Source: Roseobacter sinensis (GTDB lineage: Bacteria > Pseudomonadota > Alphaproteobacteria > Rhodobacterales > Rhodobacteraceae). Taken from it: a DNA stretch of 64,000 bases. How positions within the stretch are numbered: the stretch's first letter is position 1; every line of letters begins with the position of its first letter. Shown piece after piece: positions 32,979 through 51,540 of the stretch. The stretch is taken from the NCBI RefSeq assembly GCF_025755255.1, contig NZ_JALIEB010000007.1, forward strand, positions 62,001-126,000, given 5' to 3'. A program made the position numbers and the translations under genes. A model generated the notes under the pieces. It searched no databases. It saw nothing but the letters and a program-made list of their open reading frames with translations, and was not told the DNA's origin.

Positions 32979-32997
32979 TTTGCTGCATTGCGGCACA
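32979..32997 (+). promoter_or_regulatory. TTGC-N4-TTGC direct-repeat site, mcl2 promoter
   Basis: TTTGC then TTGCGGCAC with TTGC starts 8 bp apart (32980 and 32988), 80-98 bp before the mcl2 ATG. Shared with sdhC, ecm and ccr. Confidence 0.6.
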
Positions 32998-33044
32998 ATT
33001 TCCCTTGCAGTTTGTTTCAAAAAATGCCCCATTCCGCGCAATTT

Positions 33045-33054
33045 TGTGATCATA
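33045..33054. promoter_or_regulatory. Single TGTGATCATA site before mcl2
   Basis: Nine of ten bases match the TGTGATCACA palindrome of the sucC and sdhC promoters, with the same TTT flank. It lies 22 bp before the ATG, a position that would suit repression. No partner 21 bp away. Confidence 0.45.
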
Positions 33055-33076
33055 GCGATGAACCGGATTCACACCG

Positions 33077-33934
33077 ATGCCTCAGCTTCCGCGCCCGTTG
33101 CGCTCTGTTCTTTACATTCCAGCCTCCAGGTCGCGGGCGCTTGAAAAGGCCCGCACATTACAAACCGATGCGATCATTTTTGATCTTGAAGATGCCGTGG
33201 CGCCCGACGAAAAGCCGGCCGCGCGCACCACTCTGGCCGAGGCGCTGGCGGCCGGGGGCTATGGAGAACGCCTAAAAATTGTGCGGATCAACGGGCTCGA
33301 GACCGACTGGGGCGCGGACGACGCGCAGGCAGCTGCAGAGATGGCTGCGGATGCAGTCCTGTTGCCAAAAGTCGACGGCCCTGCACAGCTCGACGCGCTT
33401 GCGCAGATCACAGGGGATACCCCGCTCTGGGCCATGATGGAGACTCCCCAAGGCATGCTCGCGGCCGCCGAGATCGCGGCCCATCCGCTCTGTCAGGGCA
33501 TGGTGATGGGCACAAACGATCTGGCCAAGGACATGGGCACCCGGTTCCGGGCCGACCGTCTGCCGCTGATGACGGGCCTTGGTCTCTGCCTGCTCGCGGC
33601 CAAGACACATGGGGTGGCCATCGTCGATGGGGTCTTCAACGCCTTCAAGGACACCGACGGGCTTGCCGCGGAATGCGCGCAGGGCCGCGACATGGGCTTT
33701 GACGGCAAGACGCTGATCCACCCCGCACAACTCGAGGTCGCCAACGCCGCCTTCTCGCCCACCGAGGAGGAGGTCGACCTCGCACGTCGGCAGATCGCAG
33801 CCTATGATGAGGCGATTGCCGCGGGGCAGGCCGTGGCCGTGGTCGACGGGCGGATCGTCGAGAACCTGCATGTTGCAACCGCGCGGGAAACACTGGCAAA
33901 GATGGACGCGATAGCAGCTCTTAGCGCGGAGTAA
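33077..33934 (+). CDS. mcl2: (3S)-malyl-CoA thioesterase (Mcl2-type, CitE/HpcH-like)
   Basis: EMC-pathway enzyme that hydrolyses (3S)-malyl-CoA to malate plus CoA. 285 aa, HpcH/HpaI-CitE TIM barrel: SVLYIPASR, IIFDLEDAVAPDEK, RINGL, ETPQG and GTNDLAKD, which contain the phosphate and Mg-binding residues. The length fits the thioesterase Mcl2 (about 285) better than the lyase Mcl1 (about 318), and the operon with mch supports the pathway. A malyl-CoA or citramalyl-CoA lyase activity cannot be excluded. No strong ribosome site before the ATG. Confidence 0.85.
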   Translation: MPQLPRPLRSVLYIPASRSRALEKARTLQTDAIIFDLEDAVAPDEKPAARTTLAEALAAGGYGERLKIVRINGLETDWGADDAQAAAEMAADAVLLPKVDGPAQLDALAQITGDTPLWAMMETPQGMLAAAEIAAHPLCQGMVMGTNDLAKDMGTRFRADRLPLMTGLGLCLLAAKTHGVAIVDGVFNAFKDTDGLAAECAQGRDMGFDGKTLIHPAQLEVANAAFSPTEEEVDLARRQIAAYDEAIAAGQAVAVVDGRIVENLHVATARETLAKMDAIAALSAE

Positions 33935-33938
33935 GCCC

Positions 33939-34496
33939 ATGGCCCTCATCATTGCCGGATTGATCCTCTGGACCCTTGCACACTACTTCAAGCGCCTGGC
34001 GCCCGATCGCCGGGCGGCCCTGGGCGATCCGGGCAAGGGGCTGGTGGCGGTTGGCGTTGTTGCCGGGCTGGTGCTGATGATCCTCGGCTATCGCGGCGCC
34101 GAGTTCATCTATGTCTGGCAGCCGCCCACCTTCATGGTGCATGTGAACAACACGCTGATGCTGATCGCCTTCTGGGTCTATGGCTCCAGCGCGGCCAAGA
34201 CGGCCAAGGCCTGGCCTGCGTCAAAGATCCGGCATCCGCAGCTCACCGGTTTCAAGATCTGGGCCGCCGCACACCTGCTGGTGAATGGCGATCTCGCGTC
34301 GATCCTGCTTTTCGGCGGGCTTCTGGGCTGGGCCGTGGGCGAGGTGATCCTGATCAACCGCGCCGAGCCTCACTGGACGCCGCCCGAGCCTGCCGGCACA
34401 GCCACCTATGTACGCCTTGCGGTCATCAGCCTCGTGCTCTTCGGCCTTGTGGCGGCCATTCACAACTGGCTGGGCGTCTGGCCCTTCCCCGTCTGA
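33939..34496 (+). CDS. NnrU family membrane protein
   Basis: 185 aa, about five membrane helices. The HYFKRLAPDRRAALGD block near residue 14, NNTLMLIAFWVYG and the HLLVNGDLASILLFGG stretch match the NnrU family, named from a gene linked with nitrite/nitric oxide reductases and also related to the isoprenoid-type NnrU/NnuR-like enzymes. Here it sits 4 bp after mcl2, so it is co-expressed with the EMC pathway. Its role in this context is unknown. Confidence 0.85.
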   Translation: MALIIAGLILWTLAHYFKRLAPDRRAALGDPGKGLVAVGVVAGLVLMILGYRGAEFIYVWQPPTFMVHVNNTLMLIAFWVYGSSAAKTAKAWPASKIRHPQLTGFKIWAAAHLLVNGDLASILLFGGLLGWAVGEVILINRAEPHWTPPEPAGTATYVRLAVISLVLFGLVAAIHNWLGVWPFPV

Positions 34497-34511
34497 GACC
34501 CGGAGACTGTC

Positions 34512-34715
34512 ATGATCCTCTACCGCTTCCTCTCCGAAGAGGACACCTCGGCCTTCTGTCACAAGGTGACGGATGCGCTCAACAAGGGCTGGGCGCTTTA
34601 CGGCAGCCCGACGCAGACCTGGGATCACGGAGCGGGCGTGATGCGCTGTGGGCAGGCGGTGACGAAAGAGGTCGAGGGCACCTACACGCCAGACACCAGG
34701 CTGGGAGAGCACTGA
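34512..34715 (+). CDS. DUF1737 small protein
   Basis: 67 aa, start preceded by the purine-rich GACCCGGAGACTGTC. The pattern of YRFLSEEDTSAFCHKV, LNKGWALYGSPTQTW and AVTKEV is DUF1737, a short all-alpha/beta domain that usually ends in a variable tail. The stop overlaps the mch ATG (TGATG), so it is co-translated with mch. No known role. Confidence 0.8.
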   Translation: MILYRFLSEEDTSAFCHKVTDALNKGWALYGSPTQTWDHGAGVMRCGQAVTKEVEGTYTPDTRLGEH

Positions 34716-35749
34716 TGGGCGTGAAGACCAATGTGGGCCGGTTCTTCGAGGACTACTCGCTCGGGCAGGTGATCCACCACGCCGTCCCGCGCACGGTCAA
34801 GATGGGCGAGCGCGCACTCTACCACATGCTCTACCCGGCGCGCCACGCGCTCTATTCGTCGGATCAGTTCGCACAGGGCTGCGGGCTGCCGTTCTCGCCG
34901 CTCGATGATATGGTCGCCTTCCACGTGGTCTTCGGCAAGACCGTCCCGGATGTCTCGCTGAATGCCGTGGCAAACCTTGGCTACGCGCAGGGGCGCTGGA
35001 TCACGCCCGTGTGGCCCGGCGACACGCTGCGCGCGGTCTCCGAGGTGATTGGGCTCAAGCAGAACTCGAACGGCAAGACCGGCGTCGTTTGGGTGCGCAC
35101 GACGGGGCTCAACCAGCACGGTGAGACGGTGCTCGAATACGTGCGCTGGGTCATGGTGCGCAAGCGCGACCCCGGGGCCGCTGCGCCCGAGACGGTGGTG
35201 CCGGATCTGCCCGAGGCGGTGGCCGCGGAGGATCTGGTGATCCCCAAGGGCCTCGATTTCACGAACTACGACGTCACGCTGGCGGGCGAGCCGCACCGCT
35301 GGGGCGACTATACGGTGGGCGAACAGATCGACCATGTGGATGGTGTCACCGTCGAGGAGGCCGAGCACATGATGGCCACGCGGCTCTGGCAGAACACGGC
35401 AAAGGTGCATTTCGACACCTCCGCGCGGCCCGATGGGTCCCGCCTGATCTATGGCGGCCACGTGATCTCCATGGCCCGCGCGCTCAGCTTCAACGGGCTT
35501 GCGAACGCGCAGATGGTCGTGGGACTGAACGGTGGCGCGCACGCGAACCCCTGCCTTTCAGGCGATACCATCCGCGCCTGGTCGGAAGTGCTCGACAAGG
35601 CCGAGACACCGGCGCCGGGCGTCGGTGCCCTGCGGCTGCGGCTGGTCGCGACGAAAGGGGGCGACCCGTTCCGTCTGAAAGGGGGGGATGGCAAATACTT
35701 GCCGAATGTTCTGCTCGATCTGGACTACTGGGCGTTGTTGCCCATGTAA
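34715..35749 (+). CDS. mch: Mesaconyl-CoA hydratase (MaoC-like, EMC pathway)
   Basis: Reversible hydration of mesaconyl-C1-CoA to beta-methylmalyl-CoA. 344 aa, the length known for Mch/Mcd, a two-hot-dog MaoC-type protein. The first half has YSLGQVIHHAVPRTV and ALYSSDQFAQ; the second has the DHVDGVTVEEAEHMMATRLWQNTAKVHFD hydratase-like block and LIYGGHVISMARALSFNGL. Fourth gene of the mcl2 operon, overlapping DUF1737 by a TGATG. Together with mcl2, ecm and ccr it gives a large part of the EMC pathway. Confidence 0.9.
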   Translation: MGVKTNVGRFFEDYSLGQVIHHAVPRTVKMGERALYHMLYPARHALYSSDQFAQGCGLPFSPLDDMVAFHVVFGKTVPDVSLNAVANLGYAQGRWITPVWPGDTLRAVSEVIGLKQNSNGKTGVVWVRTTGLNQHGETVLEYVRWVMVRKRDPGAAAPETVVPDLPEAVAAEDLVIPKGLDFTNYDVTLAGEPHRWGDYTVGEQIDHVDGVTVEEAEHMMATRLWQNTAKVHFDTSARPDGSRLIYGGHVISMARALSFNGLANAQMVVGLNGGAHANPCLSGDTIRAWSEVLDKAETPAPGVGALRLRLVATKGGDPFRLKGGDGKYLPNVLLDLDYWALLPM

Positions 35750-35790
35750 ACCAGCGGGCCTTGGTGCCCGTCTGAAGGAAAGATTTGAGT

Positions 35791-36507
35791 ATGCGGATCA
35801 TTTTTCTGAGCCTTTTTTTCGCCTGTACCTCCCTCGTCAGCCCATTGCAGGCGCAGAGCCGTGAGGACACCTTTGTCGAGGCCAACGTGCTTGCCATTCT
35901 CTATCACGAGATGGGCCATGCGCTGATCGACATCCTGCAGTTGCCGGTTTTCGGACAGGAAGAAGACGCCGCCGACGTGCTTAGCGTGTTGCTGATCCAT
36001 GATCTCTACGAGGAAGAGGCCGCGGCGGGCATCATTTATGACGCCGCCTTCGGTTTTCTGGGGGAGGCCGACTCCTACGAAGCGGCGCCTTGGGGGGTGC
36101 ATGGCCTCGACCTGCAGCGGTACTACACTATGATCTGCCTCTTTTACGGCGCCAACCCGGACGCGCGGGAGGACCTCGCAGTCGAGTTGGAGTTGCCGGC
36201 CGAACGCGCGGAGACCTGCCCCGAGGAGTTCCAGCTCGCTTATGACAGCTGGGGGCCGGTGCTCGACGAGATCACCGCGGACGAGCCGGGCACGTCGATG
36301 ACGCTGGAAGGCGCGGGCGACGATGTGATCGGGGTGCTGATGGTCGATGAGGTCGCGGCGCTGAACGAGGACTTCATCCTGCCGGTGGCGCTGACCTTCC
36401 GGGTCGAGGCCTGCGGCGAGGCGAACGGGTTTTATGATCTCGGCACCCGCGAGATCATCATCTGCAGCGAGTTGGACCCCTATCTGCGGAGCCTCGCAGG
36501 GTTCTAG
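35791..36507 (+). CDS. DUF4344 metallopeptidase, exported
   Basis: 238 aa from the ATG at 35791 (an in-frame TTG at 35785 is only 4 bp from the AAGGA box). Signal peptide 1-22, ending LQA-QS. The motif HEMGHALID near residue 40 is a gluzincin-type HEXXH; EED a few turns later is a candidate third ligand. DUF4344 proteins are predicted zinc peptidases in the periplasm. Two cysteine-containing strands close to the C terminus (RVEACGEANG, IIICSELD) may form a disulfide. 41 bp after mch, so possibly read through, but unrelated. Confidence 0.82.
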   Translation: MRIIFLSLFFACTSLVSPLQAQSREDTFVEANVLAILYHEMGHALIDILQLPVFGQEEDAADVLSVLLIHDLYEEEAAAGIIYDAAFGFLGEADSYEAAPWGVHGLDLQRYYTMICLFYGANPDAREDLAVELELPAERAETCPEEFQLAYDSWGPVLDEITADEPGTSMTLEGAGDDVIGVLMVDEVAALNEDFILPVALTFRVEACGEANGFYDLGTREIIICSELDPYLRSLAGF

Positions 36508-36607
36508 ACCAATTGACACCATGGGGATCGAACCAGAGGTCCCGCCCGACCCTGGCTGGGTGAGAAATGCGCTCCTCGTGCCGAACGCGCGCCTTTGGCG
36601 TGACGGG

Positions 36608-36628
36608 GAGGGCCCGAAGCGGGCCTCT
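36608..36628 (+). terminator. Possible terminator before the DUF1194 gene
   Basis: An 8-bp GC stem with one bulged G and a 3-nt loop (about 36608-36628) lies 100 bp after the DUF4344 gene, without a clear T tract. The rest of the 188-bp gap has no gene; a T-loop-like CTGGTTCGATCC on the minus strand near 36525 is not a tRNA. Confidence 0.35.
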
Positions 36629-36695
36629 CAAATCACGGTGCGCCGTTGTAGAAATTCGCCATATCAAATCGGGCCCGATTGCGTAATCTGGCCTC

Positions 36696-37442
36696 ATGAT
36701 ACGCCTGCCCCTGCTCCTACCTCTTCTGTGCTGCCTGGCCGGAGGCCGCTCTGCGCTCGCCTGCCAGCTTGCGCTGGTGCTTGCGGTTGATGTCTCGGGC
36801 TCGGTCGATACGCGGGAGTATGACATCCAGATGCAAGGGCTGGCCGCCGCGCTGCGCGAGGGTGTGATCATCGACGCGCTGATCGAACAGGAGGCGCAGG
36901 TCGCCCTGATCCAATGGACCGGCTCGTCGCGCCAGCGCCAGACCATCCCCTGGACAGCCATCCGCACGGCGGAGGATGTGGCACGGCTCGCGGACGCTGT
37001 TGGTGGGAACCGCCGCGTCTGGCGCAACTACTCCACCGCCATCGGCGAGGCGCTTGTGGCCGCCGAGGAGGCCCTGCGCGCCGTGCCGCAATGCGCGCGC
37101 AAGGTCATCGACGTCTCGGGCGATGGCATCTCCAACGAAGGCATCCACCCGCGCGACCGTCATCCCGCCTTGGCCGAGATGGATGTGACGGTGAATGGGC
37201 TCGCCATCGAGACCGACGAGGAAGACCTGACGGGCTGGTTTTATGAAAACCTGATCCGTGGCGAGGGCGCTTTTGTTATGACCGCCAATGGGTTCGAGGA
37301 CTATCCCGCGCAGATCCGGCGCAAGTTGCAGCGCGAGATCACCCGGCCGCTCAGCGGGTACAGAATTTGTGATCACGGCGCTTTCTCGTGTGATCACAGT
37401 TATCAGTTGATTAACGATTTTCGGTCAAACCGCGCCAAATAA
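36696..37442 (+). CDS. DUF1194 VWA-type secreted protein
   Basis: 248 aa. Signal peptide to about residue 22 (ALAC-QL). The VWA domain has the MIDAS DVSGSVD near residue 30, with Thr/Asp ligands in the VIDVSGDGISNEG segment near residue 140, and fits DUF1194, a family of exported metal-ion-dependent adhesion-type proteins in alphaproteobacteria. The last 25 codons overlap the TGTGATCAC operator pair of sdhC, so the tail (SGYRICDHG...) is constrained by DNA sites and is unlikely to be conserved. Plain single gene. Confidence 0.82.
   Translation: MIRLPLLLPLLCCLAGGRSALACQLALVLAVDVSGSVDTREYDIQMQGLAAALREGVIIDALIEQEAQVALIQWTGSSRQRQTIPWTAIRTAEDVARLADAVGGNRRVWRNYSTAIGEALVAAEEALRAVPQCARKVIDVSGDGISNEGIHPRDRHPALAEMDVTVNGLAIETDEEDLTGWFYENLIRGEGAFVMTANGFEDYPAQIRRKLQREITRPLSGYRICDHGAFSCDHSYQLINDFRSNRAK
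37368..37398. promoter_or_regulatory. Paired TGTGATCAC(A/G) operator ahead of sdhC
   Basis: TGTGATCACG at 37368-37377 and TGTGATCACA at 37389-37398, again 21 bp apart. They lie inside the 3' end of the DUF1194 gene and 127-157 bp before the sdhC ATG. Confidence 0.75.
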
Positions 37443-37449
37443 CCGCGGC

Positions 37450-37467
37450 TTTGCGGCGTTGCGGCAC
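37450..37467 (+). promoter_or_regulatory. TTGC-N4-TTGC direct-repeat site, sdhC promoter
   Basis: TTTGC, GGCG, then TTGCGGCAC (TTGC starts at 37451 and 37459), directly after the DUF1194 stop and 58-75 bp before sdhC. Confidence 0.6.
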
Positions 37468-37524
37468 GTGACAAAGCCGTAATAAGCGGTAAAAAGAGCG
37501 GCAGGGAACCAAAAGGAATCTGCC

Positions 37525-37908
37525 ATGGCCGATGTCAATCGGGGCAATCGCCCCTTGTCGCCACATCTGACGATCTATCGCCCCCAGCTGACCTCAATTA
37601 CCTCGATTCTAACCCGCATCACCGGAAATGCACTGCTGATTTCGGCTTTGCTCGTGGTTTGGTGGTTCCTTGCCGCGGCCACCTCGCCAGAATACTTCGC
37701 CATCGCCAATGGCGTGTTGACCAGCTGGTTCGGCGATCTGGTGATGACGCTCTCGCTCTGGGGGCTGTGGTACCACACGCTCGCGGGTGTGCGGCATCTG
37801 ATCTGGGATCAGGGCATCGGCCTCGATCTGGAGACCGCCTACAAGCTGGGCTACGGGGTGATCGGCGGCTCGGTGCTGTTGACGCTTCTGACCATCGCGA
37901 TTGTTTGA
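37525..37908 (+). CDS. sdhC: Succinate dehydrogenase cytochrome b556 subunit
   Basis: 127 aa, three membrane helices. It begins with NRGNRPLSPHLTIYRP, the quinone-site Pro/His/Tyr pattern, and has HTLAGVRHLIWDQG, where the His is the haem b ligand. Membrane anchor of complex II, which oxidises succinate and reduces ubiquinone. Preceded by AAAAGGAATCTGCC, a good ribosome site. First gene of the sdh operon. Confidence 0.95.
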   Translation: MADVNRGNRPLSPHLTIYRPQLTSITSILTRITGNALLISALLVVWWFLAAATSPEYFAIANGVLTSWFGDLVMTLSLWGLWYHTLAGVRHLIWDQGIGLDLETAYKLGYGVIGGSVLLTLLTIAIV

Positions 37909-37918
37909 GGAGGCTGCC

Positions 37919-38290
37919 ATGAGCTATCTGACAGACCGCAAGCGCGCCGTGGGGATGGGCTCCGCCAAATCAGGTACTGAACATCACTGGTCGATGACCG
38001 TCAGCTCCGGCGCGCTGCTGATCCTGATCCCGCTCTTTGTCTTTACCTTCGGCCCGATGCTAGGCGCCTCCTACGAAGAGGTCACCGCCTATTTCAACCG
38101 CCCGTTCCCGGCGGTTGTGGCGGGCCTGACGATCATCGTGAGCTTCAAGCATTTCGCGGGCGGTGTGCAGGCGCTGCTCGAAGACTATGTGCACGGGCTC
38201 GCGCAGAAGATCTGTATCGTGGCGATGACATGCCTGTCCTACGCGGCCATGGCCGTGGGCCTCTATGCCGTTGTGCGCCTCGCGCTCTGA
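37919..38290 (+). CDS. sdhD: Succinate dehydrogenase hydrophobic anchor subunit
   Basis: 123 aa from the ATG at 37919 (GAGGAGG ribosome site upstream; an in-frame earlier Met is less likely). Three membrane helices. The N-terminal RAVGMGSAKSGTEHHW and the HFAGGVQALLEDYVHG stretch supply the second haem histidine and the Asp/Tyr near the quinone. Pairs with SdhC in complex II. Confidence 0.93.
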   Translation: MSYLTDRKRAVGMGSAKSGTEHHWSMTVSSGALLILIPLFVFTFGPMLGASYEEVTAYFNRPFPAVVAGLTIIVSFKHFAGGVQALLEDYVHGLAQKICIVAMTCLSYAAMAVGLYAVVRLAL

Positions 38291-38335
38291 CCCCAATGAC
38301 GGGCGGTGCGCCGCTCAGATCCAGGAGACTGATCC

Positions 38336-40141
38336 ATGGCTGAATACGAATATGAAACACATGAATATGACGTGGTGGTCGTGGGCGCGGGCGGCGCGGG
38401 CCTGCGCGCGACCCTGGGCATGGCCGAGCAGGGGCTGCGCACCGCCTGTGTGACCAAGGTGTTCCCCACACGTTCGCACACAGTGGCGGCCCAAGGCGGC
38501 ATTGCGGCGTCGCTGAGCAACATGGGCCCGGACCACTGGCAGTGGCACATGTATGACACGGTGAAGGGCTCCGACTGGCTCGGCGACACCGATGCCATGG
38601 AGTACCTCGCGCGCGAAGCACCCAAGGCGGTCTATGAGCTCGAACATTACGGCGTGCCGTTTTCGCGTACCGAGGACGGCAAGATCTACCAGCGGCCCTT
38701 TGGCGGTCACACCACGGAATTCGGTGAAGGTCCCGCTGTGCAGCGCACCTGTGCGGCCGCCGACCGGACGGGCCACGCGATCTTGCACACGCTCTATGGT
38801 CAAAGCCTCAAGAACAATGCGGAATTCTACATCGAGTACTTCGCGATTGATCTCATCATGTCCGAGGACGGCATCTGCCAGGGCGTGCTGTGCTGGAAGC
38901 TCGACGACGGCACGCTGCACCTCTTTGCGTCAAAAATGGTGGTGCTGGCGACCGGCGGTTATGGACGCGCGTATTTCTCCGCGACTTCCGCGCACACCTG
39001 CACGGGCGACGGCGGCGGTATGACGGCGCGCGCCGGCCTCCCGCTACAGGACATGGAATTCGTTCAGTTCCACCCCACAGGCATCTACGGCGCGGGCTGC
39101 CTCATCACCGAAGGTGCGCGCGGTGAGGGCGGGTATCTCACCAATTCCGAAGGCGAGCGCTTCATGGAACGCTATGCGCCGCAGTACAAGGACCTCGCCC
39201 CGCGGGATTATGTCTCCCGCTGCATGACGATGGAGATCCGCGAGGGCCGGGGCGTCGGCAAGAACGGCGACCACATCCACCTCAACCTCAACCACCTGCC
39301 GCCCGAGACGCTGAAACTGCGCCTGCCCGGCATCTCCGAGTCCGCCCGCATCTTCGCAGGCGTGAACCTCAACAAGGAGCCGATCCCGGTGCTGCCCACC
39401 GTGCATTACAACATGGGCGGCATCCCGACGAACTACTGGGGTGAGGTGCTGGCCCCAACGAAGGACGACCCCGACCGCGTGTCGCCGGGCCTCATGGCCG
39501 TCGGCGAGGCCGGTTGCGCCTCAGTGCATGGGGCCAACCGTCTGGGCTCCAATTCGCTCATCGACCTCGTGGTCTTCGGCCGCGCCGCCGCGATCCGCGC
39601 GGGCAAGGTGGTCGACCCCGAGGCGCCCGTGCCGACGCCCAACAAGGCTTCGGTGGAGGCGGCACTCGACCGCTTCGACAACACCCGCCACGCCAAGGGC
39701 CACACGCCAACGGCCGAGTTGCGGCTCGAGATGCAGCAGTGCATGCAGAAAGACGCCGCCGTCTTCCGCGCCAATGACACGCTGGCCGAAGGCAAGAAGG
39801 CGATGGAAGAGGTGGCCGACAAATGGTCGGATGTGGGCGTGACCGACCGCAGCCTGGTGTGGAACTCCGACCTGATGGAGACGCTCGAGCTGGCGAACCT
39901 CATTCCCAACGCGGTCGCCACGATCGTCGGCGCCGAGGCGCGCAAGGAAAGCCGCGGCGCGCACGCCCATGAGGATTTCCCCGAGCGCGACGACCAGAAC
40001 TGGCGCAAGCACTCGCTCATTTGGTTCAAGGGCAACAAGGCGTCCTTGGGCTATCGCGGCGTGCACGAACAGCCGCTCACCAGCCACAACGACGGCGGGA
40101 TCGACCCCAAGAAGATCGCGCCCAAGAAGCGGACCTTCTGA
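38336..40141 (+). CDS. sdhA: Succinate dehydrogenase flavoprotein subunit
   Basis: 601 aa. FAD fold [12 protein letters not shown], covalent FAD-linking His in [13 protein letters not shown] near residue 44, the FHPTG block and active-site RGEGGYL, then [18 protein letters not shown]. The C terminus has the GEHSHAG-like helical domain and ends with the Lys-rich tail. It oxidises succinate to fumarate on the cytosolic side. Its stop overlaps the ATG of a lipoprotein gene (40141) rather than leading straight to sdhB. Confidence 0.97.
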
Positions 40142-40473: not shown

Positions 40474-40494
40474 ACCGAACAGGAGACCCGAGAC

Positions 40495-41364: not shown

Positions 41365-41491
41365 AGCGTTCCATATGCGCCGCCAGACGCCAACGCACGC
41401 GCCTCTGTCCGGCGACCGGTTTACGTAGCGACGGTAACGTCTCCTTTTGGAACTCAGCGGCTTTTCGAAGCCGGGTCTACTGGAGATGACC

Positions 41492-42661: not shown

Positions 42662-42692
42662 TCTTGAAGCGGCTTGCACAAACTGGCTGAAT

Positions 42693-42720
42693 GGCGGGGC
42701 TCACCAGAATTGGTCCCGCC
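42693..42720 (+). other. Hairpin ending at the DUF1989 start codon
   Basis: GGCGGG (42693-42698) pairs with CCCGCC (42715-42720), extended by G:T and C:G pairs, directly followed by the ATG at 42721. It would bury the ribosome-binding area, and no Shine-Dalgarno is seen. Confidence 0.4.
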
Positions 42721-43566
42721 ATGAACGCTCCTGCCGACGCTGACGCCCGCCGCGCCATCGCACCCGTCATCTGCTATCCGACCGAGGCCTTGCCAGGGCC
42801 GGATATGGCGCTGCTGACCGCGGCGCGACAGACGCTGACAAAGGTGGGCGAGGTCACAGTCCCGCCGCGGGAGGCCCGCTGTTTCGAGGTGCCGGCGGGC
42901 CATTTCTTCCGCATCACCAGCATCGAAGCGCCGCAGGTGGGTGACCTGAACCTGCACAACGCCGCCGACCCGACCGAGCGCTTCTACTCCGGCAAGGCGC
43001 GCGCGCTGCACGGCACTCATCTGAGCACCGGGGACCGGATGTGGTCCTCCTTCCCGCATCTGCGCCCGCTCGCGACGATCACGCACGACACCTTGGACTG
43101 GTATGGCATCGACGACTTCGGTGGGTCGGTCCATGACGTGATCGGCACGCGGTGCGACCCCTATACGCATGCGCTGCTGTCCGACGGCGCGCAGTATCAC
43201 CACTGCTGCCACTCGAACCTGACGCGGTCGCTCGCGGCACATCTCGGCCTCCCGCGCGCGGACGCCGAGCCGCTTGTGCATGACGTGCTGAATGTCTTCA
43301 TGTGCACCGGCTTCACCCGTGACACTGGGCAGTACTTCATGAAGGCCAGTCCCGTCAGGCCCGGGGACTATCTAGAGTTCTTTGCCGAGATCGACCTTCT
43401 CGGCAATCTCTCCGCATGTCCGGGTGGCGACTGCGGTTCTGAACACTCAAGTGATTTCGCACCGTGCGCGCCACTGCTGGTGGAAGTCTTCCGGCCTGCT
43501 GTGGACAGTCTCGCAGGTTGGTCGCCGCCGTCAGTCAATACTTACGACAGAAGCCACGGCCCCTGA
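42721..43566 (+). CDS. DUF1989 (urea carboxylase-associated-like) protein
   Basis: 281 aa from the ATG at 42721; an in-frame ATG at 42691 would add 10 residues and lies in a hairpin. The block PPREARCFEVPAGHFFRI, then VGDLNLHNAADPTERF, and the metal-site-like CHSNLTRSLAAHLG and CPGGDCG stretches fit DUF1989, a family found near urea amidolyase or guanidine genes, but none of those are here. Conserved Cys and His (THLSTGD, YHHCCH) suggest a metal enzyme. Its neighbours suggest nitrogen or polyamine salvage, by context only. Confidence 0.78.
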   Translation: MNAPADADARRAIAPVICYPTEALPGPDMALLTAARQTLTKVGEVTVPPREARCFEVPAGHFFRITSIEAPQVGDLNLHNAADPTERFYSGKARALHGTHLSTGDRMWSSFPHLRPLATITHDTLDWYGIDDFGGSVHDVIGTRCDPYTHALLSDGAQYHHCCHSNLTRSLAAHLGLPRADAEPLVHDVLNVFMCTGFTRDTGQYFMKASPVRPGDYLEFFAEIDLLGNLSACPGGDCGSEHSSDFAPCAPLLVEVFRPAVDSLAGWSPPSVNTYDRSHGP

Positions 43567-43663
43567 CGTTATCTTGCAAGACGGCTTGGATGCTGCGAGC
43601 CCGCCTCAGGCGATCATCAGATGCCTCGGCAGAACGGCGGCTGGTCCTTGCGGTTTGCCTGGG

Positions 43664-44368
43664 TCAGGGAAAGGCCGCCTCAAGAGCGATTTCCACCATA
43701 TCCCCGAAGGTGCGTTCGCGGTCTTCAGATGGAAGCGCCTCCCCCGTTTTCAGATGATCCGACACCGTCAGAACCGCCAATGCGCGGCAGCCGTACCGTG
43801 CTGCGACGGCATACAATTCCGCCGCTTCCATTTCGACCGCGAGAACACCATGGCGGGTCATTTCCTCGTCGAGCCGCGGATGCTCGGAATAGAAGACGTC
43901 CGACGAATAAATCCCGCCGATATGAGTTGTGACGTTCTTCTTTTCAGATGCCACCGCGGCGGCGCGCAGCAATTCGAAATTCGCGCAGGGGGCGAAATTC
44001 AGCGGATGGAAGATATGCGTGGACGGAGTGGAGATCGTACTCGCCGTCATGGCGAGAATAACATCCCGAATTGCAACCGTGTCTTGCATCGCACCACAGG
44101 ATCCAATTCGGATCAGCGTTTTGGCGCCAAAGTCGCGAATGAGCTCATTGGCGTAAATCGAGAGAGAGGGCATTCCCATCCCGGAGCCCTGGATGCTGAC
44201 ACGATGCCCCTTCCAGGTTCCGGTGAAGCCCAGCATGCCGCGCACCTTGTTGATGCATGAGACATCTTCGAGAAAGGTCTCTGCGGCCCATTGCGCGCGA
44301 CTGGGATCGCCGGGCATCAGCACCGTTTCTGCGATATCTCCCGGCGAGGCTCCGATATGCGTCGTCAT
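43664..44368 (-). CDS. deoD: Purine-nucleoside phosphorylase (DeoD type)
   Basis: 234 aa. Phosphorolysis of purine nucleosides to base plus ribose-1-phosphate. The N-terminal [27 protein letters not shown], the Arg-containing [14 protein letters not shown] phosphate block, [17 protein letters not shown] and the late [11 protein letters not shown] with SDH are canonical hexameric DeoD. Convergent with the DUF1989 gene (97 bp). A predicted purine nucleoside ABC importer lies at 56.4-61.2 kb. Confidence 0.95.
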
Positions 44369-44419
44369 GGCGATCTCCCTTTCTTCGCGGCCTTGCCTGT
44401 ACTGTCACCCAGCGGCCAG

Positions 44420-44457
44420 AAAAACAATATGACCCGGCGAGATACCATCGCCGGGTC
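44420..44457 (-). terminator. Terminator of the H-NS-like gene
   Basis: Perfect 10-bp stem (44431-44440 with 44448-44457), 7-nt loop, followed on the minus strand by an AT run ending in five T (44420-44430 as A-rich on plus). 34 bp after the H-NS-like stop. Confidence 0.85.
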
Positions 44458-44490
44458 GCACGCAATTCATCCGATAGGGGCTTCCTTGGA

Positions 44491-44826
44491 TCAGAGCTCC
44501 ATGGATTTTGGGTCTTTGCCTGCTGCTGTCGCCTCTTTGAACCATTTCGGCTGACGGCCTTTGCCGGTCCAGGTCTGAGTGCGATCAGCCGGATTGGCGT
44601 ATTTCGCAACTCCGATCGGTTGCGAAGATTTCCTTTTTACACGCGTCGCGCGGGGTTTGCCATCTGTCAATTCGGACAGAGAGTATCCAAATTTCTGCGC
44701 CGCTTGCTCTGCCGCACGGCGGGCCTCCCGCATTTCTTTGTTGCGCAGGGTTTCCAGCGCCTTCTCAACGTCCTTTTGCAGCTTCTCCAGCTGCTTTTTC
44801 GTCATCGATTTCAGATCTTGGGGCAT
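44491..44826 (-). CDS. H-NS-family nucleoid protein (HvrA/SPB-like)
   Basis: 111 aa. N-terminal coiled-coil oligomerisation region (KKQLEKLQKDVEKALETL), linker with RVKRKSS, and the C-terminal H-NS motif KYANPADRTQTWTGKGRQPKWF, whose TWTGKGRQP loop enters the minor groove. In Rhodobacter the relative HvrA affects photosynthesis and nitrogen genes; here the target genes are unknown. Its own terminator follows. Divergent or tandem with none: 98 bp from ecm stop. Confidence 0.92.
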   Translation of the reverse strand: MPQDLKSMTKKQLEKLQKDVEKALETLRNKEMREARRAAEQAAQKFGYSLSELTDGKPRATRVKRKSSQPIGVAKYANPADRTQTWTGKGRQPKWFKEATAAGKDPKSMEL

Positions 44827-44924
44827 TCTGTTTCTCTTGAGAATTGAATGCCGCCGTGCTTAGAGCAAAAGGCTTGAGATGCAAAGGTCGCATTTTGTGT
44901 CTACTCGTTTAGGCGAATTAGCGT

Positions 44925-46892
44925 CTATTCCGCCGCGACAGCCTGCGGATCTGCAAGGGTCACAATGTCCATCATGATGGTATTGAGCTCGAAATCCTTT
45001 GGCGTATAGACTCGGGCGACGCCCATGGATTTGAGCCGCTCCGCATCGTCATCCGGAATAATGCCGCCGACAATAACGGGAATGTGACCGAGGCCCGCAG
45101 CGCGCATTTGGGTCATCACATCCTCGACCAGGGGAATATGGCTGCCCGACAGGATCGAAAGTCCGACCACATGGGCTTCGTCTTCCTGCGCGGCTGCCAC
45201 GATCTCGGATGGTGTGAGGCGAATGCCTTCGTAGGCGATGTCCATGCCGCAATCGCGGGCGCGCACAGCGATTTGCTCGGCACCATTGGAGTGCCCGTCG
45301 AGGCCCGGCTTGCCGACGAGGAACTTGAGCCGGCGACCGAGCCTGTCGCTGACCGCATCAACGGCATCGCGCAGATCATCAAGCCCTTCGGTCTTGTTGG
45401 AACGCGCACCAGAGACGCCCGTCGGTCCACGATACTCGCCGTGCACCGCGCGCATCTCGGCAGCCCATTCGCCGGTGGTCACCCCGGCCTTGGCGGCGGC
45501 GATCGAGGGGGCCATGACGTTGCGGCCTTCCGCCGCCGCCGCCCGCAGATCGGCCAGGGCGCGGCGGACGGCATCGGCATCGCGTTCTGATCGCCAAGCG
45601 TCGAGGCGCGCGATCTGATCGGCTTCGACCGCCGGATCGACCACCATGATCCCGCCGTCACCCGTCATCAGCGGCGAGGGTTCGCCCTGCTGCCATTTGT
45701 TCACCCCAACGACGATGGTCTCGCCAGCTTCGATCCGGCCCAGACGGTCCGAATTGCTGTCCACAAGACGCGCCTTCATGTAGTCGATGGCCTCAATGGC
45801 GCCGCCCATGCCATCGAGCGTGGCAAGCTCATGCCGCGCGCCCGCCTTCAAGGCTTCGACCTTCGCGTCCACCGCCGGGTTGCCGTCAAAGAGGTCATCG
45901 AACTCCAGAAGATCGGTTTCATAGGCCATGATCTGCTGCATCCGCATCGACCACTGCTGGTCCCACGGGCGCGGAAGGCCGAGCGCTTCGTTCCAGGCCG
46001 GAAGCTGCACCGCCCGCGCCCGCGCCTTTTTCGACAGGGTCACGGCCAACATCTCGATCAGGATCCGGTAGACGTTGTTCTCGGGCTGCTGCTCCGTCAG
46101 ACCCAGCGAGTTCACCTGCACCCCATAGCGGAAGCGGCGAAATTTCGGATCCTCCACGCCATAGCGCTCGCGGCAGATCTCGTCCCAGAGATCCACAAAG
46201 GCGCGCATCTTGCACATCTCGGTGACAAATCGGATGCCCGCGTTCACGAAGAAAGAAATACGCCCCACGAGCACGGGGAAATCCTCTGCCGGGACGCGCG
46301 GTTTCAGCGCATCCAGCACAGCCGTGGCAGTCGCCAGTGCAAAGGCCAGTTCCTGTTCCGGTGTCGCCCCCGCCTCTTGCAGATGGTAGGAGCAGACGTT
46401 CATCGGGTTCCATTTGGGCACGTTGGTATAGCAGTACTCGGCCACATCCGCGATCATCTTGAGGCTGGGCGCGGGCGGGCAGATATAGGTGCCGCGGCTG
46501 AGATACTCCTTGATCAGATCGTTCTGCACCGTGCCTTGCAGCTTGGAGACATCGGCGCCCTGTTCCTCGGCCACCGCGATATAGAGCGCCAGCAGCCAGG
46601 GCGCCGTCGCGTTGATTGTCATGGAGGTGTTCATCTGTTCCAGCGGGATCTGGTCAAACAGCGTGCGCATGTCGCCCAGATGGCTGATCGGCACGCCGAC
46701 CTTGCCGACCTCTCCGCGGGCCAGCACATGGTCGCTGTCATAGCCCGTCTGGGTCGGCAGATCGAAGGCCACGGAGAGCCCCGTCTGGCCCTTTGCGAGG
46801 TTGCTGCGGTAGAGCGCATTCGACGCTTTCGCCGTGGAGTGCCCCGCATAGGTACGAATCAACCAGGGGCGGTCTTTCTGGACGTCGGACAT
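44925..46892 (-). CDS. ecm: (2R)-ethylmalonyl-CoA mutase
   Basis: Coenzyme-B12 enzyme of the EMC pathway: ethylmalonyl-CoA to methylsuccinyl-CoA. 655 aa, the usual length for Ecm, slightly shorter than methylmalonyl-CoA mutase. N-terminal TIM barrel with RPWLIRTYAGHSTAKASN, and a C-terminal B12 domain with DGHSNG for the base-off His ligand. The H-S-N form, not the H-D-R of methylmalonyl-CoA mutase, marks the Ecm clade. The promoter gap has the TTGC direct repeat; luxR, ccr and acyltransferase follow across the region. Confidence 0.95.
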   Translation of the reverse strand: MSDVQKDRPWLIRTYAGHSTAKASNALYRSNLAKGQTGLSVAFDLPTQTGYDSDHVLARGEVGKVGVPISHLGDMRTLFDQIPLEQMNTSMTINATAPWLLALYIAVAEEQGADVSKLQGTVQNDLIKEYLSRGTYICPPAPSLKMIADVAEYCYTNVPKWNPMNVCSYHLQEAGATPEQELAFALATATAVLDALKPRVPAEDFPVLVGRISFFVNAGIRFVTEMCKMRAFVDLWDEICRERYGVEDPKFRRFRYGVQVNSLGLTEQQPENNVYRILIEMLAVTLSKKARARAVQLPAWNEALGLPRPWDQQWSMRMQQIMAYETDLLEFDDLFDGNPAVDAKVEALKAGARHELATLDGMGGAIEAIDYMKARLVDSNSDRLGRIEAGETIVVGVNKWQQGEPSPLMTGDGGIMVVDPAVEADQIARLDAWRSERDADAVRRALADLRAAAAEGRNVMAPSIAAAKAGVTTGEWAAEMRAVHGEYRGPTGVSGARSNKTEGLDDLRDAVDAVSDRLGRRLKFLVGKPGLDGHSNGAEQIAVRARDCGMDIAYEGIRLTPSEIVAAAQEDEAHVVGLSILSGSHIPLVEDVMTQMRAAGLGHIPVIVGGIIPDDDAERLKSMGVARVYTPKDFELNTIMMDIVTLADPQAVAAE

Positions 46893-46967
46893 GGCAACCT
46901 CATGAATCGCTCAAAGCAATTATATTACGCTGAGAGGTTGATATCTGGAACATTATGGCGTTGTCAA

Positions 46968-46985
46968 TTCGCTGCGTTGCGGCGA
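46968..46985. promoter_or_regulatory. TTGC-N4-TTGC-like site, ecm promoter
   Basis: TTCGC, TGCG, then TTGCGGCGA, second TTGC 8 bp after the first (C)GC core; 76-93 bp before the ecm ATG and in the inverse direction relative to ecm. One mismatch in the first half-site. Confidence 0.5.
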
Positions 46986-46989
46986 GAGA

Positions 46990-47583
46990 CTATTCTGCCG
47001 TCACGTGCCAGAGCATCTGCGTCGCTGACCGAAACCGGAACATCACCTCGAACACCCCGGTCTCTTCGACAGCGGTTGCCAGAAAGCCCTTTCGTTCATA
47101 GAGCGCCTTTGCCCGCGGGTTTGTATCGATCACATCGAGGCGAAGCGCGCGCTTGCCCAATCGCTGAACCTTGGCCTTCATCGCATCGAGCAAAACACCA
47201 CCGATCCCCTGGCCGCGCGCATCGCTCCGCACGCAGATGCCATCCATGAGCAGGATGTCCGGGCTGACATCGCGGTCCACCACCGACAGGACGAGCCCGC
47301 GCCAGAGCCCGCCGACATAGCCGTATATGCGTTGAAGGTCGGGCAGATCGCCTCCTACAAGCGCGCCGTCTTCCGTCTTGAACCCGGCGATCCCGAGGAT
47401 TCGTCCTTCGGCATCCCGTGCGACGAGGGCGAACCGCGGGTCCAGCACCGCCGCGAGGAACGTCAGGGCGCGCGCCTCGGGGCCCAGGTATCGCCCCAAC
47501 TTGTGGCCGAAGGCCTGCCAGTAGAGCGCGGCGACCACCGGCCGTTCGTGCGGTTCAAATCCATCGCTCAGGGTGACATCCAT
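46990..47583 (-). CDS. GNAT family N-acetyltransferase
   Basis: 197 aa. The acetyl-CoA-binding V-x-x-x-x-R-G-x-G-x-G stretch is VRSDARGQGIGGVL near residue 118, then LDVIDTNPRAKALYERKGF, the usual C-terminal GNAT strand and helix. Substrate unknown. Same strand as ecm, 97 bp upstream, divergent from the PlsB-like gene (45 bp). Confidence 0.85.
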   Translation of the reverse strand: MDVTLSDGFEPHERPVVAALYWQAFGHKLGRYLGPEARALTFLAAVLDPRFALVARDAEGRILGIAGFKTEDGALVGGDLPDLQRIYGYVGGLWRGLVLSVVDRDVSPDILLMDGICVRSDARGQGIGGVLLDAMKAKVQRLGKRALRLDVIDTNPRAKALYERKGFLATAVEETGVFEVMFRFRSATQMLWHVTAE

Positions 47584-47628
47584 GGATTTGATATTGTCCT
47601 CGCGGGCCGCTCCTGCAAGGGTCTGGCC

Positions 47629-48996
47629 ATGACGCAGGTCGTTGAGATACCGCTTTGGCTCTTTGTGCTGATCGTGCTCTTTGCGGCTGTGACCTTAGCG
47701 TCGCACTTTCTTTTTCCTTCGGTGCGCTGGTTCTTCCGTCGCCGGTTGGAGCGCGCCGTCACCCGCCTCAACCAGCGGCTGACCCGGCCGATCGAGCCTT
47801 TCAAGCTCGCCCGCCGCTACGACATGATCCAGCGGCTGATCTATGATCCCGAGGTCAGCCGGGAGATTGCCAACCACGCAAGGACGAACAACGTCCCGGA
47901 GAATGTGGCCTTCGAGCGGGCCCGCGCCTATGCGCGGGAAATCGTCCCCAGCTTCAGCGCCTTTACCTACTTCAGTCTCGGAACGCGCATGGCGCGGCTG
48001 CTGGTCCGGTCGGTCTATACGGTCTGGACCGGGCCACGCAACGATGTGGTCATCGGCGAGATCCCGAAGGACGCAACGGTGGTCTTTATCATGAACCACC
48101 GGTCCAATATGGATTACGTTCTGGTCACTTATCTGGCCGCGCAGAGCTCGGCACTGTCCTATGCAGTTGGCGAATGGGCACGGGTCTGGCCGCTGAGCCA
48201 GCTTATTCGGATGATGGGGGCGTATTTCATCCGGCGTAAGTCGCGGGGGGGACTCTATCGCAAGATCCTGGCGCGCTATGTGCAGATGGCCATTGCCGGT
48301 GGTGTGGCGCAGGGGATCTTCCCGGAGGGCGGGTTGAGCCTGAACGGGCGCCTGATGCCACCCCGGCTGGGGCTGCTGTCCTATGTGATCGACGGCTATG
48401 ATCCGGAGGGCCGGGACGTGGTGTTCGTCCCCGTCGCCATCAACTACGACCGGGTGCTGGAGGACCGGGTGCTGATCGCTGCGGGCAAGCGGGGGGACCG
48501 GCGGTTCGGGGCACGGATTTCGGTGGCCTTGAAATTCATCCTCAGCAAGTTCTGGCAGGGTTTGCGGGGGCGCGTTACGCGGTTCGGCACAGCAGCGGTG
48601 GTCTTCGGTGCACCACTTTCCTTGCGGGAGTTTGGTGCGGACAGACCCGTCGAGGAGCTGGCGGAGAGCCTGATGGACCGGATCTCCGATGTCATGCCGG
48701 TCCTTGTCGTGCCACTTGTCTGTCACGTCATCGGGGATCAGGAGGCGCCGGTGCCGGAAGCTGCGCTGGTCGAGGCTGTTCGTGATCTCGCCCGCCCGCT
48801 GTCCTCGCGGATGCCCGAAGGCGCGCTCGACACGTTGCCGGAGGCGGTGCGCGACGCGCTGCTGCAATTGCGCAAGCACGGGGTGCTGGAAGAGACAGCG
48901 GTAGGCTGGAAGGCGTCAGCGGATCAGGATGCGGTTGTGCAGTACTACGCCAATTCGGTTGCGCATCAGTTGGAGAACAGCGCAACTGCGGCATAA
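47629..48996 (+). CDS. Glycerol-3-phosphate acyltransferase (PlsB-like)
   Basis: 455 aa from the ATG at 47629; the open frame reaches 300 bp further but runs antisense through the GNAT gene. N-terminal membrane helix (about 7-28), a helical region, then the acyltransferase core with NHRSNMDY (HX4D), the RRKSRGGLYRK G3P-contact block and FPEGGLS. The order and spacing fit the alphaproteobacterial PlsB-like enzymes that attach acyl chains to glycerol-3-phosphate. It lies directly upstream of ccr in the same orientation, as I recall also for other EMC-pathway bacteria. Confidence 0.85.
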   Translation: MTQVVEIPLWLFVLIVLFAAVTLASHFLFPSVRWFFRRRLERAVTRLNQRLTRPIEPFKLARRYDMIQRLIYDPEVSREIANHARTNNVPENVAFERARAYAREIVPSFSAFTYFSLGTRMARLLVRSVYTVWTGPRNDVVIGEIPKDATVVFIMNHRSNMDYVLVTYLAAQSSALSYAVGEWARVWPLSQLIRMMGAYFIRRKSRGGLYRKILARYVQMAIAGGVAQGIFPEGGLSLNGRLMPPRLGLLSYVIDGYDPEGRDVVFVPVAINYDRVLEDRVLIAAGKRGDRRFGARISVALKFILSKFWQGLRGRVTRFGTAAVVFGAPLSLREFGADRPVEELAESLMDRISDVMPVLVVPLVCHVIGDQEAPVPEAALVEAVRDLARPLSSRMPEGALDTLPEAVRDALLQLRKHGVLEETAVGWKASADQDAVVQYYANSVAHQLENSATAA

Positions 48997-49045
48997 AATT
49001 CTGCGTTCGCGAAGTCATAAAATTACAAAAATGACGCTTCAGATG

Positions 49046-49062
49046 TTGCAATGTTGCGCAAC
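49046..49062 (+). promoter_or_regulatory. TTGC-N4-TTGC direct-repeat site, ccr promoter
   Basis: TTGC at 49046 and TTGCGCAAC at 49054, 8 bp apart, 79-95 bp before the ccr ATG. The second half-site is also a TTGCGCAA palindrome. Confidence 0.65.
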
Positions 49063-51513: not shown

Positions 51514-51540
51514 AACGGCCCTCGTCCCCGCCCTGATCCG

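Follow-up and report, generated by a model that had tools for sequence, protein, structure and literature searches.

Three genes of the ethylmalonyl-CoA (EMC) pathway in Roseobacter sinensis, mcl2, ecm and ccr, have a PhaR-type box in their upstream regions, and it is likely that PhaR would control all three through these candidate sites, mainly by a repression that PHB relieves. At low PHB, PhaR is bound to DNA; as PHB builds up, the protein moves onto the granules. An initial annotation of this DNA had proposed a regulatory site common to the EMC genes; such a site is indeed found at mcl2, ecm and ccr and is conserved in relatives, the ccr copy lying at a different position from the one first noted. 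The window analysed here comprises 64,000 nt of the forward strand (GCF_025755255.1, NZ_JALIEB010000007.1 positions 62,001-126,000).

Sequences, samples and scoring

Conservation was followed in the window together with one relative per genus, 79 of 119 relatives being taken in descending order of ecm score; some were left out, mostly near contig ends. Counting the window, readable upstream regions numbered 77 for ccr, 80 for ecm, 47 for sdhC and 33 for mcl2, the last after removal of 3 of 36 matches in which the N-terminus was missing; the rest are at least 59% identical, and some may be paralogues. Distances to the start are approximate in the relatives, because the start position is a homologous codon rather than a start codon in 32 of the 80 ecm and 10 of the 33 mcl2 regions. 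A second, named sample of 80 loci, drawn partly from the same species and contigs as the first, gave 79 readable ccr and 72 readable ecm regions. The null model for the motif counts in the first sample was the dinucleotide shuffle (20 rounds).

A PhaR matrix built from 16 Sinorhizobium sites listed as 'Efficient' in EMSA (PMC12542648, Table 3) was scored at 63,980 positions of the window, and the level applied to relatives was set at 95% of random stretches. Such a matrix yields false positives, as with the 12.4-bit match at ccr in G353, where no PhaR was found, so occurrences of the core pattern were used alongside the matrix in counting. The phaR and phaP genes were followed in the 29 best-scoring phaR loci and in R. 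sinensis itself, with phaP readable in 17; their upstream regions of 200 bp were judged against a matrix level set on 150 bp.

From a TTGC repeat to a PhaR-type box

The initial annotation had drawn attention to paired TTGC half-sites, their starts 8 bp apart, upstream of mcl2, sdhC, ecm and ccr. All four sites are present, at distances from the start codons that agree with those reported, and TTGC-N4-TTGC is exact at 32980 (mcl2), 37451 (sdhC) and 49046 (ccr); the first half of the ecm copy, at 46969, is TCGC. The exact pattern occurs 8 times in the window against 2.87 expected. Genome-wide, TTGCN4TTGCG is likewise in excess (62 loci, against 23 for the reversed pattern), but of the 30 loci checked 11 are intergenic and 19 intragenic according to a home-made gene caller, so it is not a clean regulon marker. 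Alignment of orthologous promoters gave a similarly divided answer: a core is kept at mcl2, ecm and ccr, but the sdhC site is not. The exact TTGC-N4-TTGC is kept across relatives only at ccr (49/77), and its counts at ecm (1/80), mcl2 (1/33) and sdhC (1/47) do not rise above shuffles; on this distribution the idea of one TTGC-N4-TTGC regulon of four genes was dropped. The pattern that relatives keep at mcl2 and ecm is CYGCRNYGCRG, and TTGC-N4-TTGC captures part of it. The notion of a shared element stands for these two genes in the form of a PhaR-type palindrome, but not for the other two sites first noted, that at ccr being best read as the -35 region and that at sdhC as a probable chance match.

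Table 1. Features in and around the mcl2, sdhC, ecm and ccr upstream regions (window coordinates)
Feature	Position	Strand	Basis or remark
mcl2 PhaR-type box ATTTGCTGCATTGCGGCACAA, core CTGCATTGCGG at 32983-32993	32978..32998	.	Matrix rank 1 of 63,980, 19.2 bits
mcl2, HpcH/HpaI aldolase/citrate lyase family, CitE-like	33077..33934	+	Named by place and by the initial annotation
Paired GTGATCAC palindromes 5' of sdhC, outside the PhaR set	37369..37397	.	GTGATCAC in 45/47 sdhC upstream regions
sdhC site of the initial annotation, weak match	37449..37469	.	5.1 bits, matrix rank 20
ecm, ethylmalonyl-CoA mutase, acyl-CoA mutase family	44925..46892	-	Homology
Putative ecm -35 hexamer TTGACA	46962..46967	-	Sequence and spacing across relatives
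ecm PhaR-type box, core at 46972-46982	46967..46987	.	Matrix rank 9 of 63,980, 8.0 bits
ATAAAATTACAAAA-like conserved element, 5' of ccr -35	49017..49031	+	Loose form in 62/77 ccr upstream regions
ccr site of the initial annotation, TTGCAATGTTGC	49046..49057	+	First TTGC read as -35 hexamer; second TTGC in spacer
Putative ccr -10 hexamer, TATYYC type	49069..49074	+	Alignment of ccr upstream regions
ccr PhaR-type box CGATTCTGCATCGCGGCATAG	49089..49109	.	Matrix rank 3 of 63,980
ccr, crotonyl-CoA carboxylase/reductase	49141..50421	+	TIGR01751, 611 bits, cut-off 378.55

The three boxes have GC-N3-GC cores (CTGCATTGCGG at mcl2, CTGCATCGCGG at ccr and CTGCGTTGCGG at ecm), each differing from the strict CTGCNNNGCAG at a single base. 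The ecm box scores low, at only 8.0 bits. The mcl2 21-mer is identical in G238, a relative of the same genus. At ecm the box adjoins the -35 hexamer, and its centre lies exactly 10 nt 5' of TTGAC in 67 of the 68 upstream regions that have TTGAC no more than 12 nt past the core. The ccr box, overlooked in the initial annotation, is placed at about +19 relative to the putative transcription start. Spacing between box and promoter is nearly constant across genera.

The core is present upstream of mcl2 in 29/33, of ecm in 73/80 and of ccr in 72/77 cases (shuffle maxima 2, 3 and 3), and the named sample gave 76/79 at ccr, including Paracoccus, Cereibacter, Ruegeria and Phaeobacter, and 68/72 at ecm. 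Scores exceed the matrix level in 72/77 ccr, 65/80 ecm and 30/33 mcl2 regions, compared with 7/47 for sdhC, 2/49 for sdhB, 7/27 for mdh and 1/13 for sucC; counting against the pattern, the core was found in 11 of 27 upstream regions of mdh, a control. Some of the 60 genome-wide box matches examined precede unrelated-looking genes (a urea transporter, lysyl-tRNA synthetase, a transposase).

As to the genes themselves, the mcl2 product has no exact NCBIfam model above its cut-off, and a second ecm-like match in the genome, 38% identical, was taken as methylmalonyl-CoA mutase. Another motif, C, which resembles GMAAYAWWATTRC, lies near the starts of ecm in 45/80 and of mcl2 in 11/33 cases.

The ccr core promoter and the sdhC upstream region

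The TTGC-N4-TTGC at ccr appears to be mainly core promoter, its first TTGC being best read as the -35 hexamer. This TTGC stands 17 bp before the TATYYC-type -10; TTGC[AT]-N18-TA[TC] is found in 60 of 77 ccr upstream regions (shuffle maximum 3), and the spacer is 17 in 45 of the 46 pairs with TA[TC][CT][CT]C. The TTGC pair, with small deviations allowed, occurs in 70/77. Set against the PhaR core, the site at 49046 has GC-N6-GC instead of GC-N3-GC and takes matrix rank 24, and its proposed membership in a regulon lapses with its assignment to the -35 region.

At sdhC the PhaR-type core occurs in only 3 of 47 upstream regions, and the 300 bp upstream of the G238 sdhC hold neither the core nor TTGC-N4-TTGC; on these grounds the gene was dropped both from the proposed regulon and as a PhaR target. 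Pairs of the GTGATCAC palindromes (gap 12-13) number two in the whole 4.9-Mb genome, one of them at sdhC. The sdhC gene of S. meliloti carries a weakly bound PhaR site (PMC12542648).

PhaR, phasin genes and the loss of PHB synthesis

The R. sinensis genome encodes PhaR (TIGR01848, PHA_reg_PhaR, 151 bits against a cut-off of 109.45; one PF07879 match), and the protein was found in 386 of 395 genomes of the family. Two cores precede phaP in all 17 readable loci, among them that of R. sinensis, whose phaP is a Phasin_2 match (30 bits, cut-off 24.9), and a box above the matrix level precedes phaR in 26/30.

Among EMC-bearing genomes in which no PHA synthase was detected, the core is present in none of the 6 readable ccr and none of the 5 readable ecm upstream regions, against 9/11 at ccr and 9/11 at ecm in synthase-positive comparison genomes. 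This comparison covers two of the three genes, ccr and ecm, in three PHB-less lineages; it includes G417-G419, of unstated completeness, and the draft G033, which is 74% complete and whose promoter could not be aligned. In two of the three lineages a remnant of the ccr box is visible with one core GC changed (to AC, to GT), and the -35 and -10 of ccr are still recognisable there. Among synthase-positive genomes, the core is missing at ccr in G001 and G057 (diverged PhaR), ccr of G001 having an 18.7-bit matrix site and that of G057 none, and at ecm in G420. The drafts G098 and G420 have an intact ccr box and no PhaR match, probably through assembly gaps, because both carry PHA synthase.

Alternative explanations

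That GC-rich promoters throw up such matches anywhere, by chance, is extremely improbable as an account of the boxes. The 19 of 30 raw-pattern loci that fall within genes favour it, as does the probably fortuitous sdhC site, for which the chance reading remains; shuffles reach at most 3/77 at ccr, 3/80 at ecm and 2/33 at mcl2 and speak against chance for these genes, as does spacing nearly fixed across genera. It is more conceivable, yet still unlikely, that a different, unnamed PHB-linked regulator with a PhaR-like palindrome binds the boxes: what supports PhaR there is their sequence likeness to PhaR sites, and a motif as short as GC-N3-GC turns up often where GC content is high, as stated for B. 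diazoefficiens (PMC10888616). Pointing to PhaR itself, the box is doubled at phaP, present at phaR, and missing together with PhaR and PHA synthase.

The sites had originally been assigned to an ScfR-type acyl-CoA regulator, PccR or RamB, an assignment we now regard as very improbable. The genome does carry two ScfR-domain genes, and two TTNC boxes in the ccr promoter (one TTAC-like, one TTGC), 23 bp apart, could be taken for a bipartite ScfR site; the TTGC, however, keeps a fixed 17-bp spacer to the -10. The PccR/RamB half-site is reportedly TTTGCAAA, from work of Carter and Alber in 2015. Three copies of TTTGCAAA, with starts 15-16 bp apart, lie just 5' of the reading frame of the better ScfR gene (L032:522-560), an arrangement unlike CYGCRNYGCRG; that gene (G000:C7) has HTH_3 and ScfRs domains and is located ~10 kb from a methylmalonyl-CoA-mutase-type gene. 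An exact scan of the window for TTTGCAAA found one lone copy, at 14699, and no repeats. An ScfR regulator would also leave unexplained the phaP boxes and the absence of the box where PHB synthase is missing. In P. denitrificans, deletion of Pden_4472 (PccR homologue) or Pden_1350 (MccR homologue) left EMC expression patterns in ccr/icl reporter strains unaffected, and EMC transcripts rise in a ramB mutant (PMC10370305). PccR and RamB resemble the regulator sought here in acting on neighbouring acyl-CoA pathways (PMC10370305), but half-site, spacing and gene set differ, and the repeats at the strain's own ScfR gene, together with the published deletions, led us to reject them. A doubtful but less remote proposal, compatible with control by PhaR, is that the ccr TTGC-N4-TTGC is an activator direct repeat overlapping the -35, beyond the promoter hexamer. 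Conservation of the second TTGC in the spacer and of the upstream ATAAAATTACAAAA element is more than a plain -35 requires, whereas several genera have TTAC or TTTC in place of the second TTGC, and the first sits at the canonical 17-bp spacer from TATYYC.

A proposed model for control by PHB

PhaR binding, repression and PHB as the signal are steps that we infer from the sequences. With PHB absent, PhaR bound near +19 of ccr and next to the ecm -35 would block transcription, and it would also sit 5' of the mcl2 promoter. As acetyl-CoA-derived C4 units accumulate as PHB, PhaR would be titrated off and the EMC pathway turned on. The fixed distance from box to promoter at ecm and mcl2 could instead mean activation there. 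Absence of the core at ccr and ecm in the readable relatives where neither PHB synthase nor PhaR was detected suggests that the PHB store may help to set expression of the pathway. We lean, by a small margin of belief, toward the broader proposal that the PHB granule would be an EMC inducer throughout the family, with PhaR titration setting ccr, ecm and mcl2 and loss of PHB freeing the pathway; if true, the storage polymer would be the gauge that decides when acetyl-CoA enters it.

PHB synthesis and the EMC pathway share phaA and phaB (PMC10370305, Table 1), and a sensor serving both would therefore be metabolically sensible. In P. denitrificans a yet unknown signal turns the EMC pathway down (PMC10370305). 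The PhaR reading names a protein and the bases it may contact, in a setting where ccr reporter strains exist. Among the matches listed for the open PMC literature, taken by titles and abstract openings (subscription papers and preprints aside), PhaR sites tied to ccr, ecm or mcl2 were not found.

Comparison with known PhaR systems

The PhaR work in Rhodobacter sphaeroides FJ1 and Paracoccus denitrificans is reportedly that of Chou and Yang in 2010 and of Maehara in 2002; Methylorubrum extorquens, also considered here, belongs to another order of Alphaproteobacteria. The first two systems, from related hosts, are alike in their CTGCNNNGCAG or TGC-rich site, CTGCNNNGCAG being the R. sphaeroides form as cited in PMC12542648, but the targets named for them are phasin genes, unlike the EMC genes here (via PMC12542648 and PMC10888616). 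M. extorquens AM1 uses the EMC pathway, and its PhaR is linked to the partitioning of acetyl-CoA flux, with loss rewiring transcription; the passages on PhaR there give no EMC promoter site, unlike the candidate sites here (PMC6520949). The S. meliloti PhaR (AniA) regulon has the same YGCRNYGCR-core palindrome, doubled at phasin genes, and central-carbon targets, although the outer arms of the boxes here are more GC-rich (CTGC...GCGGCA), and the terms ccr and ethylmalonyl do not occur in that paper (PMC12542648). Its weakly bound rhaD/rhaR intergenic site (PMC12542648) has a counterpart here in a box that separates rhaD from the gene of a DeoR-type regulator (L152). The geometry of the boxes resembles that of phaP1 in R. 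eutropha, whose sites, one beside the -35 and one at the start, have been described as a typical repressor arrangement (PMC12849132).

Shared pattern and ccr core promoter

The R. sinensis assembly comprises 4.9 Mb in 77 contigs, to one of which the window belongs, and the window carries mdh and mcl2, a mesaconyl-CoA-hydratase-like gene, the genes from sdhC to sdhB, and ecm and ccr. The label mcl2 was given by position and family (HpcH/HpaI), as the gene reached the cut-off of no exact NCBIfam model. Relatives were sampled by seeking ecm in 120 family genomes, one per genus, and retrieving a region of at most 20 kb spanning it in 79 of 119 relatives; with the window counted in, 77 ccr, 80 ecm, 33 mcl2 and 47 sdhC upstreams were readable. 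A second, named sample of 80 loci overlaps the first in part.

The initial annotation described a TTGC-N4-TTGC repeat common to mcl2, sdhC, ecm and ccr and ascribed it to an ScfR-type regulator. All four sites are legible in the window where they were placed. Across the first sample the exact form is kept at ccr alone (49/77 upstreams), with one occurrence each at ecm (1/80), mcl2 (1/33) and sdhC (1/47), no more than shuffles predict; as written, therefore, the pattern links ccr to no other gene. What survives is a conserved regulatory site, real and well kept but, judged by its sequence, pointing to PhaR instead of ScfR and serving a different set of genes.

At ccr the TTGC pair recurs with little deviation in 70 of 77 upstreams, and an alignment anchored on it reveals TATYYC downstream (T and A about 90%) and a purine at the expected start. 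TTGC[AT]-N18-TA[TC] occurs in 60/77 (shuffled maximum 3), and the spacer from -35 to -10 is 17 in 45 of the 46 pairs showing the full -10 pattern. The first TTGC is thus best read as the -35 hexamer, and the ccr site originally counted in the regulon as core promoter. ATAAAATTACAAAA lies 15-29 bp upstream in the anchored alignment, in loose form in 62/77, and is possibly the site of a ccr activator. The conserved second TTGC half and this A-rich element hint at an extra factor. Directly 3' of ccr lie genes for a LuxR-type regulator and an acyl-homoserine-lactone-synthase-like protein (best NCBIfam models, scores below cut-offs).

Predicted PhaR boxes at mcl2, ecm and ccr

A PhaR matrix was built from the 16 Sinorhizobium meliloti sites listed in Table 3 of PMC12542648 as bound 'efficiently' in gel shifts; its ranking of window positions is included in the table. 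The threshold was set from 6,000 random 150-bp stretches, at their 95% level, and was exceeded by 72/77 ccr, 65/80 ecm and 30/33 mcl2 upstreams, and by 7/47 at sdhC, 2/49 at sdhB, 7/27 at mdh and 1/13 at sucC. The core of the box, CYGCRNYGCRG, gave a similar picture: ccr 72/77, ecm 73/80 and mcl2 29/33 (maxima of 20 shuffles 3, 3 and 2), against sdhC 3/47, sdhB 2/49, sucC 0/13 and mdh 11/27 (maxima 1, 2, 0 and 2). In the named sample the core was found at 76/79 ccr and 68/72 ecm upstreams. The mdh excess in relatives may be genuine; the R. sinensis mdh upstream is not within the 25 best matches of the window. Just 5' of the start, an imperfect palindrome resembling GMAAYAWWATTRC occurs in 45/80 upstreams of ecm and 11/33 of mcl2, where shuffles gave at most 3 and 1.

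Features in the window and PhaR-type boxes elsewhere in the R. sinensis genome
Feature	Position	Remarks
GTGATCAC pair	28748-28776	palindromes 21 bp apart; upstream of sucC
PhaR-type box, mcl2	32978-32998	1st matrix match, 19.2 bits
Mesaconyl-CoA-hydratase-like gene	34715-35749	PF19315
GTGATCAC pair	37369-37397	palindromes 21 bp apart; upstream of sdhC
sdhC site	37449	20th, 5.1 bits
GMAAYAWWATTRC-like palindrome, ecm	~46900-46930
PhaR-type box, ecm	46967-46987	9th, 8.0 bits
ATAAAATTACAAAA-like element	49017-49031	conserved, fixed distance upstream of ccr -35
TTGC pair, ccr	49046	24th
PhaR-type box, ccr	49089-49109	3rd, 13.8 bits
LuxR-type and synthase-like genes	50686-52267
Matrix match	56359-56379	2nd, 14.5 bits; upstream of TauE/SafE-family gene (55405-56319, minus strand)
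PHA-synthase-like gene and divergent gene of unknown family	among L254, L262, L152, L163	PhaR-type box before
Pyruvate-carboxylase-like gene	among the same four loci	PhaR-type box before
rhaD and DeoR-type regulator	among the same four loci	PhaR-type box before
Xanthine permease	among the same four loci	PhaR-type box before

The genome encodes one PhaR, adjoining phaP (Phasin_2) and phaC. Two boxes precede phaP here and in 17/17 readable loci, and one box above the 95% level precedes phaR in 26/30 loci (the best 29 relatives' loci and our own). A diverged PhaR, 31-38% identical to that of R. sinensis, occupies 11 of these 30 loci (L174-L184), G001 and G057 among their genomes. Genome-wide, YTGCRNYGCRGCA has 60 matches against 11 for the reversed control, 21 of them intergenic by a home-made gene caller, including those at phaP (two), mcl2, ccr and the last four entries of the table. 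Others precede genes with no evident link (a urea transporter, lysyl-tRNA synthetase, a transposase), and the intergenic matches are best treated as leads to possible PhaR targets.

Boxes and PHB synthesis

Of 395 family genomes that are 95% complete or better, 386 have PhaR. Seven of the nine PhaR-less genomes (G090, G133, G144, G252, G279, G321, G411) also lack ecm, compared with 7/120 genus-wide genomes having only a mutase-type second match, so PhaR and the ethylmalonyl-CoA pathway tend to be absent together. The other two, G003 and G353 of one genus, retain ccr and ecm. In the named sample the ccr core is missing from three loci (L296, L302, L303), one lineage given ccr proteins 98-100% identical; they come from genomes with no PhaR match, as does L316, which lacks the ecm core and keeps that of ccr. 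All 14 other draft genomes have a PhaR match, and the core stands in 13/13 readable at ccr.

Among 18 genomes searched, PHA synthase (TIGR01838) was found in 12 and not in G003, G353, G033 (74% complete) and G417-G419 (completeness not stated), six genomes that represent three lineages, not six events. The core occurs at 0/6 ccr and 0/5 readable ecm upstreams of these, compared with 9/11 and 9/11 readable ones in synthase-positive genomes. The exceptions are G420, without the ecm core, and G001 and G057, which have the diverged PhaR and neither a ccr core nor a canonical ccr box. An 18.7-bit site lies at another place at ccr in G001, and in both G001 and G057 the ecm sites exceed 20 bits but are positioned differently. 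Drafts G098 and G420 gave no PhaR match despite ccr boxes; since both have PHA synthase, their PhaR probably lies in an assembly gap. Remnants of the ccr box, GATTCTGCGCCACGGC in G003/G353 and GATTCTGCGCCGTGGTC in L296/L302/L303, each have one GC of the core altered, beside a -35 region and -10 that are still present.

The sdhC site and the ScfR reading

The sdhC site probably does not belong with the others: its matrix match is weak, few relatives have the core, and the same-genus genome G238 has none. What the sdhC upstreams do share is GTGATCAC, found in 45/47 (paired, 20-21 bp apart, in 34 of these) and in 13/13 sucC upstreams. The R. sinensis genome has just two such pairs (gap 12-13), one at sucC and one at sdhC, which resemble an operator for an unnamed regulator of the TCA cycle; the motif was absent among the literature matches listed.

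Assignment to an ScfR-type regulator is not supported. The better of the two R. sinensis ScfR genes (G000:C7) has three copies of a different repeat, TTTGCAAA, just 5' of its reading frame, and the window holds a single, isolated exact copy. According to PMC10370305, deleting the PccR or MccR homologue of Paracoccus denitrificans left a ccr reporter unchanged, whereas deleting ramB raised ethylmalonyl-CoA pathway transcripts; in genomes that have RamB, it may therefore act indirectly or in addition. PhaR remains the regulator to which the boxes point, with mcl2, ecm and ccr as new candidate targets of this known protein.

Box geometry and predicted mode of action

The ccr box centre lies 23-29 nt 3' of the -10 in 60/62 upstreams, at about +19. 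At ecm it stands exactly 10 nt 5' of TTGAC in 67 of the 68 upstreams having TTGAC within 12 nt, a spacing that holds although the distance between TTGAC and the start ranges over 60 to 150. The mcl2 box centre is 17 nt 5' of TTG in 21 of 24 upstreams with CTTG nearby. Repression of ccr and ecm by PhaR is favoured because this placement resembles that at phaP1 of Ralstonia eutropha, and accumulating PHB would then free the bound genes. That said, the R. eutropha protein that binds phaP1 activates phaP3 (PMC12849132), and PhaR may instead activate at ecm or mcl2. At phaP1 itself one site is found next to the -35 and another at the start, an arrangement that the same paper considers typical of repression through hindrance, and the boxes predicted here likewise fall beside the -35 (ecm) and near the start (ccr).
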